From: Clostridiales bacterium
GTDB taxonomy: Bacteria; Bacillota; Clostridia; Christensenellales; Aristaeellaceae
NCBI GenBank assembly: GCA_015056015.1
Contig: SVHD01000016.1
Location: forward strand, 1-48,228
Direction of reading: 5' to 3'
DNA length: 48,228 nt
Of this stretch, positions 24,452-45,849 are shown in pieces; position 1 is the stretch's first letter; every line of letters begins with the position of its first letter. Under the pieces are notes generated by a model. The model searched no databases. It saw only the letters and a list, made by a program, of their open reading frames with translations, and was not told the DNA's origin. Made by a program: the position numbers and the translations under genes.

Positions 24452-24552
24452 TGGGCAGAGTAGCGTTTGGCGCGTTAAGTGTTCATGGACGGGGAGTTGC
24501 CATGAAACGAAGTCAGTTTACTGACGCGGTGCCAGATGCGCATCCCGCTGCT
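24452..24552 (+). promoter_or_regulatory. Tetrahydrofolate (THF) riboswitch
   Basis: The conserved pieces of the THF riboswitch (Rfam folT motif) occur in order: GCAGAGTAGCG, GCGCGTTAAGTG, ACGAAG, GCGGTGCC and GCATCCCGC. Pairing fits the known fold: TTTGGC (24465-24470) with GCCAGA (P2), and GTTCATGG with CCATGAAA (P3). It precedes a folate transporter gene, the usual target. Binding of reduced folate is known to lower expression. Confidence 0.93.
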
Positions 24553-38153: not shown

Positions 38154-40415
38154 TTAGAGCAGATTATGCTGAATCTTGCCGCTGATGGTCTTGGGCAATT
38201 CGTCCCGGAAGACCACGATGCGGGGATATTTGTAAGGCGCGGTGCGCTGCTTGACGTAATTCTGGATTTCCTTTTTGAGTTCTTCGGTAGGCTCTTTGCC
38301 CTTGACCAGCACGATGCTGGCCTTGACTACCTGGCCGCGGACGGGATCGGGGGCGGCGGAAACGCCGCATTCCAAAACGTAGGGCAATTCCATGATGACC
38401 GATTCGATTTCGAAAGGCCCGATGCGATAGCCGCTGGATTTGATCAGATCGTCCACCCGGCCCACGTACCAGTAATAGCCGTCTTCATCCCGCCAGGCGG
38501 TATCGCCGGTATGGTAAAGGCCGTCGGGATGGGAATTGTCCTGGCCGCAGTAGCCCAGATACAGGCCGCAGGGCGGATCGTTTTCCCCAAGGTGCACCAC
38601 GATTTCGCCGGTTTCGCCGGTGGGCACGGAATGGCCGTCCTTATCCACAATATCCACATTGAACATGGGGGAGGGCTTGCCCATGGAACCGACCTTGGGG
38701 GTCATGCCCACCAGATTGCCGATGGTGAGGGTGGATTCGGTCTGGCCGAAGCCTTCCATCAGGGAAAGGCCGGTGGCTTTCTGGAACTGATAGAATACTT
38801 CGGGGTTCAGCGCTTCGCCGGCCACGGTGGCATGGCGGATGGAAGAAAGATCATATTTGGTAAGATCTTCCTTGATCAGCATGCGATACATGGTGGGCGG
38901 TGCGCAGAAGGTTTTGATATCGTATTTCTTGAACATGGGCAGGATCTGGGCGGCATTGAAGCGCTCAAAATCATAGACGAATACGGGGGATTCGCACAGC
39001 CACTGGCCGTAGAGCTTGCCCCAGAGGGCCTTGCCCCAGCCGGTATCGGAGATGGTGAAATGCAATTTTCCGGGCACCGCGCAATGCCAGTAGCGGGCGG
39101 TGATATAATGGCCCAGGGGATAGGTATGGCTGTGGGCCACCAGCTTGGGATAGCCGGTGGTGCCGGAGGAGAAGAGCATCACCATGGGATCATTGCCGCA
39201 GGCGGTCTCTTCCGTCCGGGGGAATTTGGAGGAATACATGGAATATTCGCTGTCAAAATCATGCCAGCCTTCTCGGGCGCCGCCGCAGACCACCAGGGTT
39301 TTTACCGTGGGGCACAGGGGCAGGGCTTCTTCCACCTGCGTTGTGGCCTTGCCGTAGGCGGTGCAGATGATGGCGGCGGCCTCCGCCTTATTGAAGCGGT
39401 ATTCGTAGTCATGGGCCATCAATTGATCGGTGGCGGGGATGGCCACGGCGCCGATCTTGCAAAGGGCCAGCATGGTCAGCCAGAAATGATACTGCCGACG
39501 CAGCACCACCAGCACCTTATCGCCCTTTTTAATGCCCAGGGAGCGGAAATAATTGGCGGTGCGGGCGGATTGCTTTTTCATATCCAGGAAGGTGAAGCGG
39601 CGCTCGTTCTGATCCTTATCCAGATGCAGCATGGCCAGGGTGTCGCCCTTGCGTTCCGCCAGCTCATCCACAATATCGAAAGCGAAATTGAAGGTATCCA
39701 GATGAGAAAAATCGATTTTTTTGAGGGCGCCCTGCTCGTCTTCCATGGTATGGACGTATTTTTCGCAGACCAGCTTTTCCATGGGCTGGCCGGCCTTGAT
39801 GGTTTCCATTACCCGATGCTCTTCGGTTTCCTCGCCGGGGAGCACAACGGCCATAAATACGCAATCCCCGCCTTCTGCGGCGATCATGCCATGGGGGGTG
39901 GCGGAATCGTAATAGATGGAATCCCCTTCCCGCAGCAATTCCACATGCTCGCCGATCTGCACCTTCATGGCGCCGGAGAGGATATAGTCAAATTCCTGAC
40001 CGGAATGGGTGGTCTGATGGATGGGGCGATCCTGCAAAGAAGGATCAAAGGAATAGCGGACGAAATAAGGCTCGGCGATCTTTTTGCGGAAACGGGGGGC
40101 CAGATTGCGGATATCGATGCCCTTTTCCTGCGCGGTCACTTCGCCGGCGCCCTTGCGGGTGATGGTGTAGGAGGAAAGCTGGGGAGAGCGGCCCTCCATC
40201 AAATCGATCATTTCCACCTTGAAGCAAAGGGCGCATTTGTGCAGGAACGAGAAGGGAAGATCCATTTTCGCATTTTCATAGGCCAGATACTGTTCTTCGG
40301 TCAGATCGGTCATCTGGGCCATTTTTTCCGTGGAATAACCGCTGATTTCGCGCAATTCCCGAATACGGGCGGCGACCTCATACATTTGATTGGGCACTTG
40401 CTGCAGATTAGCCAT
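38154..40415 (-). CDS. Three-domain protein: XRE helix-turn-helix, cupin, acyl-AMP ligase
   Basis: A single chain of 753 residues joins a regulator to an enzyme. Residues about 10-70 are an XRE-type helix-turn-helix (IRELREISGYSTEKMAQMTD). Residues about 115-190 are a cupin (HSGQEFDYILSGAMKVQIG, TPHGMIA). From about 255 to the end is an AMP-forming ligase: P-loop FSSGTTGYPKLVAHSH near 415, GFGQTEST, YHTGDTAWRDEDGYYWYVG, and SGKIQ near 745 with the catalytic lysine. Such ligases activate a carboxylic acid as acyl-AMP and usually pass it to CoA; the closest type seems to be medium-chain or aryl acyl-CoA synthetases. ATG 40415 has GGAGG upstream; starts further out fall in the leader. A T-box leader precedes it, so charging of a tRNA probably controls it. 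The acid is unknown. Confidence 0.88.
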   Translation of the reverse strand: MANLQQVPNQMYEVAARIRELREISGYSTEKMAQMTDLTEEQYLAYENAKMDLPFSFLHKCALCFKVEMIDLMEGRSPQLSSYTITRKGAGEVTAQEKGIDIRNLAPRFRKKIAEPYFVRYSFDPSLQDRPIHQTTHSGQEFDYILSGAMKVQIGEHVELLREGDSIYYDSATPHGMIAAEGGDCVFMAVVLPGEETEEHRVMETIKAGQPMEKLVCEKYVHTMEDEQGALKKIDFSHLDTFNFAFDIVDELAERKGDTLAMLHLDKDQNERRFTFLDMKKQSARTANYFRSLGIKKGDKVLVVLRRQYHFWLTMLALCKIGAVAIPATDQLMAHDYEYRFNKAEAAAIICTAYGKATTQVEEALPLCPTVKTLVVCGGAREGWHDFDSEYSMYSSKFPRTEETACGNDPMVMLFSSGTTGYPKLVAHSHTYPLGHYITARYWHCAVPGKLHFTISDTGWGKALWGKLYGQWLCESPVFVYDFERFNAAQILPMFKKYDIKTFCAPPTMYRMLIKEDLTKYDLSSIRHATVAGEALNPEVFYQFQKATGLSLMEGFGQTESTLTIGNLVGMTPKVGSMGKPSPMFNVDIVDKDGHSVPTGETGEIVVHLGENDPPCGLYLGYCGQDNSHPDGLYHTGDTAWRDEDGYYWYVGRVDDLIKSSGYRIGPFEIESVIMELPYVLECGVSAAPDPVRGQVVKASIVLVKGKEPTEELKKEIQNYVKQRTAPYKYPRIVVFRDELPKTISGKIQHNLL

Positions 40416-40440
40416 TGGTACTCCTCCATTTCCGGGGCGA

Positions 40441-40724
40441 TAAAAAAGCCCGCCCCAAAGATTTTTCTCTTTGAGACGAGCTGTACATACAACCCGCGGT
40501 ACCACTCAAATTGCGTATTTTTTACGCCACTTATCGGGTTCGCGTTCCAAACCCAGTGCTCTTACGCGGCCTCACGGAAGACGCTTACTTCCCCTTTGGG
40601 GGTTCATCGCTTCGGCTCGGAAGGGATGGGCGTTTGGAGATTGCCTGCTGCCGGTTTCCAGCAATTCCGGCTCTCTGAAAGCTGCGTTTTCTCCCGCCGT
40701 CTTCGTCATCGCCTTTGGTATGAA
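40441..40724 (-). promoter_or_regulatory. T-box riboswitch with terminator, upstream of the HTH-cupin-ligase gene
   Basis: On the minus strand the T-box core GAGTGGTACCGCGGGTT lies at 40491-40507, and a stem I start GGCGATGACGAAGACGGCGG further upstream fits the family. The terminator AGCTCGTCTCAAAGA pairs with TCTTTGGGGCGGGCT (15 bp, several G-U), followed by six T. The antiterminator bulge reads UGGU, which calls for a tRNA with A at position 73. The specifier loop side reads CAUCCCUUCC; UUC (Phe) and AUC (Ile) fit A73, but I cannot fix the codon by eye. Confidence 0.9.
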
Positions 40725-40733
40725 ATTGGGCAT

Positions 40734-40762
40734 AGTTTACCACCGGTTTTTTTCTTTGTCAA
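40734..40762 (-). promoter_or_regulatory. Promoter of the T-box leader
   Basis: On the minus strand a perfect TTGACA (40757-40762) and TAAACT (40734-40739) are 17 bp apart. The leader transcript would be about 310 nt. Confidence 0.8.
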
Positions 40763-45119: not shown

Positions 45120-45196
45120 CGGGGTGTAGCGCAGTCTGGTAGCGCACGTGCTTTGGGAGCATGGGGCCGGGGGTTCGAATCCCTTCACCCCGACCA
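45120..45196 (+). tRNA. tRNA-Pro (UGG)
   Basis: A 77-nt cloverleaf with acceptor CGGGGTG/CACCCCG, anticodon loop CTTTGGGAG region with TGG, T-loop GGTTCGAATCC and encoded CCA. First gene of the seven-tRNA cluster. Confidence 0.97.
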
Positions 45197-45229
45197 TTTC
45201 CCAAACGGCGAAGGGAACAACACACATGT

Positions 45230-45305
45230 GGCCCCGTGGTCAAGCGGCCTAAGACACCGCCCTTTCACGGCGGTAACCCGGGTTCGAGTCCCGGCGGGGT
45301 CACCA
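45230..45305 (+). tRNA. tRNA-Glu (UUC)
   Basis: A 76-nt cloverleaf with acceptor GGCCCCG/CGGGGTC, anticodon loop CTTTCAC with TTC, T-loop GGTTCGAGTCC and encoded CCA. Confidence 0.97.
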
Positions 45306-45348
45306 TTTTTTATCTCTTCAACCGGCAAGCGGTTTTCGGATATTACTT

Positions 45349-45425
45349 GGGCCTTTAGCTCAGTTGGTCAGAGCGGCCGGCTCATAACCGGTTGGTCCTG
45401 GGTTCAAGTCCCCGAAGGCCCACCA
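45349..45425 (+). tRNA. tRNA with CAU anticodon, probably tRNA-Ile2
   Basis: A 77-nt cloverleaf with acceptor GGGCCTT/AAGGCCC, anticodon loop CTCATAA with CAT, and encoded CCA. The body (GGGCCTTTAGCTCAGTTGG, anticodon arm CGGCTCATAACCG) resembles the minor tRNA-Ile of B. subtilis, whose C34 is changed to lysidine, more than its elongator tRNA-Met. Automatic annotation may call it Met. Confidence 0.9.
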
Positions 45426-45430
45426 TTCAC

Positions 45431-45508
45431 GGCCCGGTAGTTCAGTCGGTTTAGAATGCCAGCCTGTCACGCTGGAGGTCGAGGGTTCGAGCCCCTTCCG
45501 GGTCGCCA
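45431..45508 (+). tRNA. tRNA-Asp (GUC)
   Basis: A 78-nt cloverleaf with acceptor GGCCCGG/CCGGGTC, anticodon loop CTGTCAC with GTC, discriminator G and encoded CCA. Only 5 bp separate it from the preceding tRNA. Confidence 0.97.
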
Positions 45509-45532
45509 TTTTCTCTTTCGATTGGGCCATTT

Positions 45533-45605
45533 GCTGGTGTAGCTCAATTGGCAGAGCAGCTGATTTGTAATCAGCAGGTTGCGGGTTCAAGTCCCTTCAC
45601 CAGCT
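45533..45605 (+). tRNA. tRNA-Thr (UGU)
   Basis: A 73-nt cloverleaf with acceptor GCTGGTG/CACCAGC, anticodon loop TTTGTAA with TGT and T-loop GGTTCAAGTCC. The discriminator T is followed by CCG, so this is the only gene of the cluster without an encoded CCA. Confidence 0.95.
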
Positions 45606-45649
45606 CCGTTTCCTCTAAGAGGAAACGCACCTTTACAATCGTTATTCAT

Positions 45650-45734
<85 letters not shown>

Positions 45735-45762
45735 TCGCATCCTGAAAAAGGATGCGCCATTC

Positions 45763-45849
45763 GCGGGAATGGCGGAATTGGCAGACGCGCATGATTCAGG
45801 TTCATGTGTACGATCGTACATGCAGGTTCAAGTCCTGTTTCCCGCACCA
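45763..45849 (+). tRNA. tRNA-Leu (CAG)
   Basis: An 87-nt class II tRNA with acceptor GCGGGAA/TTCCCGC, anticodon loop TTCAGGT with CAG, variable arm TGTACGATCGTACA and encoded CCA. It is the last gene of the cluster and borders the mosaic region to the right. Confidence 0.95.

Follow-up and report, generated by a model that had tools for sequence, protein, structure and literature searches.

Genes of branched-chain amino acid biosynthesis are described as being under T-box control in Bacillales and Clostridia (PMC2494555), and for the rumen 2-methylbutyrate, isobutyrate and isovalerate are given as precursors of isoleucine, valine and leucine, respectively (cited in PMC7356843). The branched-acid route itself is long known from rumen labelling, and reductive carboxylation is the route proposed for isoleucine in Methanobrevibacter ruminantium (PMC2812497). 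Among the enzymes described for such acids are MacsMa of Methanosarcina acetivorans (structure 3ETC), whose preferred substrate is 2-methylbutyrate (PMC10455477), and MbcS of Staphylococcus aureus, which acts selectively on 2-methylbutyrate and isobutyrate and uses isovalerate poorly (PMC10026030). Here we analyse contig SVHD01000016.1 of an uncultured Clostridiales bacterium (Aristaeellaceae, assembly GCA_015056015.1), referred to at its full length of 48,228 nucleotides as the window, in which a T-box leader precedes a gene encoding a helix-turn-helix (HTH) domain, a cupin and an AMP-forming acyl-coenzyme A (CoA) ligase in one protein. Based on the observed leader anatomy, the specifiers and their conservation, the gene neighbourhoods, the absent classical genes and a residue swap in the enzyme, we consider it probable that an isoleucine-specific T-box controls a ligase making 2-methylbutyryl-CoA for the reductive-carboxylation route to isoleucine, and that sister units serve valine and leucine. 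The features of the locus, all on the minus strand, are as follows.

40734..40762, minus, sigma-70-type promoter TTGACA-17-TAAACT (motif scan)
40469..40718, minus, T-box leader, RF00230 positions 1-219 (covariance model)
40701..40710, minus, 5' base of stem I, GAUGACGAAG (Rfam alignment)
40671..40677, minus, stem I loop motif CAGAGAG (Rfam alignment)
40625..40627, minus, specifier codon AUC, isoleucine (Rfam alignment, register control, conservation)
40495..40505, minus, T-box core GUGGUACCGCG with UGGU bulge, antiterminator (Rfam alignment)
40447..40482, minus, intrinsic terminator of 15 pairs with T-run, overlapping the 3' half of the antiterminator
40421..40427, minus, ribosome-binding site GGAGGAG (sequence)
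38154..40415, minus, HTH-cupin-acyl-CoA ligase (AMP-forming), 753 aa, ATG start (open reading frame and domain searches)
40209..40370, minus, HTH_19, aa 16-69 (Pfam)
39846..40013, minus, Cupin_2, aa 135-190, with invariant H137, E141 and H175 (Pfam and alignment)
38592..39665, minus, AMP-binding, aa 251-608 (Pfam)
39033..39035, minus, codon of Gly461, a position that holds Gly in ligases under an Ile codon and Ala in those under a Val codon and aligns with V310 of Escherichia coli Acs (alignments)
38175..38411, minus, AMP-binding_C, aa 669-747 (Pfam)

The window leader is a genuine T-box. In a search of 421 bases it matched RF00230 over positions 1-219 of 219 with 75.1 bits (E 1.3e-16), a score that lies below the Rfam gathering score of 93 and kept the leader out of a default-threshold scan. 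This carries little weight against its identity, because 11 of the 17 RF00230 matches of the same genome also fall short of 93, among them those upstream of ileS, serS, thrS, proS, leuS and hisS-aspS, and only six reach it. Stem I is present with its loop motifs and a specifier, the latter being cognate only if the pathway predicted here is correct, and the antiterminator core with its UGGN bulge competes with an intrinsic terminator. Predicted folding of the leader is 3.5 standard deviations below shuffles; the stretch contains four terminator-like sites compared with 1.6 in shuffles, and one promoter compared with 0.5. A preliminary description of this DNA, made from the sequence alone, had placed a T-box with its own promoter and terminator at 40441-40724 and had let the case depend on an RF00230 match; the coordinates proved correct, a TTGACA-17-TAAACT promoter and a 15-pair terminator are present, and the match exists, if under the gathering score. 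Its further prediction that UGGU calls for a tRNA with A73 fits: UGGU would pair with ACCA, and tRNA-Val(GAC) of this genome has A73, while no tRNA-Ile was found among 39 tRNA matches (one not called by ARAGORN) in this assembly, which is 84.5% complete.

The GTG at 40505 given as start in the open reading frame list was rejected, and ATG 40415 is the better choice, because it is preceded by GGAGGAG while the GTG falls inside the T-box core. The domain composition stated in the preliminary description was borne out: HTH_19, Cupin_2, AMP-binding and AMP-binding_C are all at or over their Pfam cut-offs, HTH_19 exactly at it, and the scores for AMP-binding (201.7, cut-off 29.9) and AMP-binding_C (76.6, cut-off 24.5) place the enzyme in the ANL superfamily of AMP-forming acyl-CoA synthetases. 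The nearest solved structure is MacsMa (3etc, 579 bits; second-best 338), which also has a Gly aligned with residue 461; the match covers residues 240-749 of the window protein and thus leaves the HTH-cupin part outside. The top NCBIfam model is MbcS (NF047394, 414.9). In the cupin part H137, E141 and H175 are unchanged across 42 sequences. The predicted structure of the HTH-cupin part (predicted local distance difference test 82.6, predicted template modelling score 0.57) matches the HTH-cupin proteins HppE and the regulator 1y9q in the Protein Data Bank, with a large root mean square deviation (rmsd) over both domains; any function of this part as sensor or regulator is conjecture.

In order to read the specifier, a register rule (a triplet, then one base, then five bases that are mostly pyrimidines, then GAG) was run on all 17 T-box leaders of this genome, the targets being verified with NCBIfam, apart from pheS, a fragment below cut-off, and ileS, a 102-aa fragment with no match that was named by eye. 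The rule returned the cognate codon in 10 of the 12 T-boxes with a known target (valS GUC, trpB UGG, metG AUG, alaS GCC, pheS UUC, ileS AUC, tyrS UAC, leuS CUC, hisS-aspS GAC for Asp, and serS UCC as the second of two candidates), and did not resolve the specifiers of proS and thrS. Applied to the window leader it gave AUC, as did the Rfam alignment.

A homologue of the ligase was found at E 1e-100 in 68 of 100 genomes searched, and the best 80 of 589 loci were taken from the genome scan. Of 134 genes whose leaders were read, 110 have a single specifier candidate, nine have several, seven have none and eight lack a core. All 110 single candidates are isoleucine or valine codons, 69 Ile (AUC 69) and 41 Val (GUA 32, GUG 5, GUC 4), so that in the valine leaders the third base varies and the amino acid stays the same. 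The preliminary description had named a specifier changing at random among homologues as a reason to doubt the proposal; this was not seen, and a chance specifier was rejected. A wider set of 190 genes (174 fused, 16 unfused) gave AUC 84, GUA 46, GUG 12 and GUC 7 among the fused ones, the rest comprising nine with a core and no call (six are AUC by eye), 15 without a core and one without a leader. The single-candidate count is preferred, because Ile and Val were favoured in the wider set wherever several candidates were present. Five of the 16 unfused homologues were called AUC, nine lack a core and two lack a leader; among the five calls the T-box lies directly upstream of the ligase in L189 and L199, about 700 bases apart from it in L196 and L201, and that of L195 is a false core within the gene. 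Where tandem copies have readable leaders, the isoleucine copy comes first and the valine copy second in 35 of 36 loci; in the 36th, L058, GUU and AUC are both candidates.

Three ligase leaders (L019, L025 and L104) carry inserted repeat-like DNA (CTCCCCTATCAGGGGAG..., GGTGCGAAGCGCCGGAG) between stem I and an intact core. Elsewhere in this genome (G000), a T-box reading AUC (L014 / L140, G000 C14:37332-37592) precedes a CstA-like gene (CstA model 225.5 bits, cut-off 1188), which might encode a branched- or keto-acid importer, and a contig-end T-box (L013, G000 C98:4-228) reads AUU (Ile), its target being cut off.

One ligase residue changes together with the specifier. A FastTree phylogeny of 186 of the 190 homologues (those shorter than 450 aa were left out) requires two changes of the Ile/Val state: the Val copies of the genus (20 called) are sister to its Ile copies (18 called) and separate from a second Val clade (41 called), with a support of 100 each, and it is on these Shimodaira-Hasegawa-like values that two separate duplications are proposed. 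Only three of 753 sites (97, 211 and 461) fully split the Ile from the Val side in both pairs, and an identical swap occurs at 461 only, which is Gly in 18/18 and 72/72 Ile-side sequences and Ala in 21/21 (one of these genus sequences, L146, has an unreadable leader) and 40/40 Val-side sequences. L058 and L080 were counted as Ile, their 'Val, Gly' entries mixing a misread of the loop motif with the usual AUC context. Loci added later agreed, with Gly461 in 17/17 Ile-read and Ala461 in 10/10 Val-read ligases; 18 of these 45 genes had no specifier call, and three of the 27 called (L303, L305, L307) come from genomes used before. V310 of E. coli Acs, with which residue 461 aligns, is taken by us to line the acyl pocket (a literature search gave no confirmation). 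The bulkier Ala would then match an acid one carbon smaller, as expected. A tryptophan wall is described in PMC8383264.

The valine paralogue of this genome, at G000 C24:22630, is 69% identical to the window ligase and its T-box reads GUC. It is divergent from an operon whose products are a small protein resembling ferredoxins and three subunits (alpha, beta and gamma) of a 2-oxoacid:ferredoxin oxidoreductase (VOR); the alpha subunit passes the VorB model NF005507 (452 bits, cut-off 399), and the beta and gamma subunits have model matches below cut-offs only. In L214 and L216-L219, of which the first three (L214, L216, L217) represent three other families and L218 and L219 the same genus, an Ile T-box and its ligase are followed by a Val T-box with its ligase and then by VOR, and IlvE lies beside them; spurious specifier candidates at cores near a locus start were disregarded in this comparison. 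A third unit reads leucine, with CUC in 24 of 25 leaders of useful length (four in the first set and 20 from further loci, 15 by rule and five by eye); in the 25th, that of L215, a T-box core is lacking. The genes of the Leu unit code for a protein resembling isopropylmalate synthase, a fusion of a TIM barrel with an AMP ligase, and an IlvE that passes the curated equivalog cut-offs (NF009897 484, cut-off 307; TIGR01123 401.7, cut-off 250.05). This third, differently built ligase probably uses isovalerate, because of the Leu specifier, the IlvE, and the VOR that in L220 lies in the same gene run as the Leu unit.

The LeuA-like protein of the Leu unit at L131:658-2055 (G000 C38) starts SDQTLFTPAARA at the position of RDGxQ, which we take to be the isopropylmalate synthase motif, and keeps the LeuA_dimer domain; those genus homologues that were examined also lack the motif, and the protein is perhaps a leucine sensor without catalysis. 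The adjoining fusion (L131:2055-4529, G000 C38) joins a xylose-isomerase-like TIM barrel to an AMP-forming ligase, and in some members of the order only the ligase part was matched.

Genes of the classical pathway are missing from most genomes of the genus as far as they were searched. Ketol-acid reductoisomerase (ilvC) was not found in 28 of the 29 genomes of the genus, the window genome included (completeness 65-96%), nor was acetolactate synthase at E 1e-30 in the window genome. The sole genus genome with ilvC, G024, is also the only one in which acetolactate synthase, ilvD and leuB pass their cut-offs; the four genes lie on C39, and its tandem ligases and VOR on C21. In 60 genomes the ligase and ilvC tend not to occur together (both 2, ligase only 42, ilvC only 10, neither 6; p 5.6e-6), as they do with one genome per genus (1, 17, 10 and 4 in the same order; p 1.4e-4; fused ligases only, p 0.023) and, for close fused ligases, in 200 genomes of the order (4, 38, 60 and 98; p 3.2e-4; all four exceptions belong to a single genus), all of these tests ignoring kinship among genomes.

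We propose that uncharged tRNA-Ile would pair with AUC and the UGGU bulge, stabilizing the antiterminator so that the ligase is made and converts 2-methylbutyrate to 2-methylbutyryl-CoA. A VOR of the 2-oxoisovalerate type, working in the carboxylase direction, would then convert 2-methylbutyryl-CoA to 3-methyl-2-oxopentanoate by reductive carboxylation, and the transaminase IlvE would yield isoleucine. The same scheme would lead from isobutyrate to valine with the Val-T-box paralogue and, probably, start from isovalerate with the third ligase under the Leu T-box. The preference of the window ligase for 2-methylbutyrate is inferred from the specifier, the neighbours, the resemblance to 3etc and MbcS, and residue 461; codon and enzyme family, two independent lines, indicate the same acids. 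The preliminary description had tied the ligase to a carboxylic acid of one amino acid, and this idea survives in the form of a branched acid, most likely 2-methylbutyrate for isoleucine given the conserved AUC. Its aromatic candidates do not: codons for Phe, Tyr and Trp are absent from the single-candidate specifiers, and the Ile/Val specifiers and nearest characterised enzymes disfavour them. Its contrast between the ligase and the amino acid genes that T-boxes normally control is not supported; the ligase gene itself seems to belong to amino acid biosynthesis, by a different route, and the T-box is therefore in its usual role.

Several observations weigh against this proposal. The window ligase misses the MbcS equivalog cut-off (850) and is not assigned to MbcS; the base after AUC is C in the window leader and A in many homologues; and the 15 coreless genes among the 174 fused homologues have no such switch. 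The VOR of this genome adjoins the Val copy and does not share a contig with the window gene, and L215 has the same gene set as L214 and L216-L219 with both ligases lacking a T-box. Ligase and ilvC occur together in G024 and in the genus of G071, and across the 200 order genomes no link with ilvC is seen when homologues of every kind are counted (27, 76, 37 and 60; p 0.095). This genome has three IlvD-like dehydratases (554, 553 and 514 bits) and, at 262 bits, a LeuB-like protein, all below cut-off.

The acyl-CoA might be destined for membrane lipids, the T-box signalling a shortage of the amino acids that usually give the branched primers. MbcS, the top NCBIfam model, makes 2-methylbutyryl- and isobutyryl-CoA for FabH in S. 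aureus (PMC10026030); lipid supply predicts neither VOR and IlvE beside the ligases nor an absent reductoisomerase. We therefore regard lipid synthesis as an unlikely sole purpose, and amino acid and lipid fates of the acyl-CoA may go together. That the protein is mainly a regulator, binding DNA through the HTH-cupin part and using the ligase part as sensor, would suit the invariant H137, E141 and H175 and an N-terminus resembling both HppE, an HTH-cupin enzyme, and 1y9q, a regulator of the HTH_3 type. Yet the ligase part is complete, the unfused ligases of L189 and L199 stand directly behind an Ile T-box, HTH_19 is exactly at cut-off and the superpositions have large rmsd, which makes such a role very improbable.

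Least credible to us is a ligase making propionyl-CoA, which would be carboxylated to 2-oxobutyrate and enter the classical isoleucine route. Such a ligase would be compatible with an Ile T-box and with an oxidoreductase of the 2-oxoacid:ferredoxin type, but the steps after 2-oxobutyrate require the acetolactate synthase and reductoisomerase that searches of this genome did not find, and the sister unit reads valine; the propionate route was rejected on the missing enzymes.

Compared with the T-box leaders of branched-chain amino acid genes, the window leader is alike in its whole-model match, specifier, core, terminator and control of a biosynthesis step, and unlike in having an acyl-CoA ligase as target. 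The terms 'acyl-CoA' and 'CoA ligase' are absent from the main texts of PMC2494555 and PMC3766115, and PMC2700814, whose terms overlap with this case, has a T-box before leuA only. In the open literature no paper joining a T-box to such a ligase was found, an earlier mention (Vitreschak 2008, Gutierrez-Preciado 2009) being possible. MbcS differs in feeding lipid synthesis and in handling both acids with a single enzyme; two enzymes with two specifiers are present here. The acid-amino acid pairs are those of the rumen reductive-carboxylation route, for which candidate genes and codon-matched control in uncultured Clostridia are now proposed.

Elsewhere on the plus strand of the window lie seven clustered tRNA genes (45120-45849; Pro, Glu, Met, Asp, Thr, Tyr and Leu, with Ile and Val not among them) and a tetrahydrofolate (THF) riboswitch (24454-24552, 85.9 bits), the next open reading frame of which begins like a membrane protein.

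Taking the reductive-carboxylation proposal together with its Val and Leu counterparts, we consider a broader picture, which we hold with slightly more doubt than belief. A lineage of rumen and gut Clostridia would have dropped the classical branched-chain pathways and would derive isoleucine, valine and leucine from one branched fatty acid apiece, with a separate T-box over every entry step and the specifier as substrate label; codon and acyl-pocket residue would have changed together after duplication, twice separately, and the HTH-cupin part would add control at the metabolite level. The codon-matched switch provides candidate genes and predicted substrates for the first step of the rumen branched-acid route in uncultured bacteria, so that the pathway becomes testable enzyme by enzyme, and it offers a natural test of joint change in regulatory and enzyme specificity after duplication. 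Predictions of which gut bacteria rely on others for their branched acids could also profit from it.

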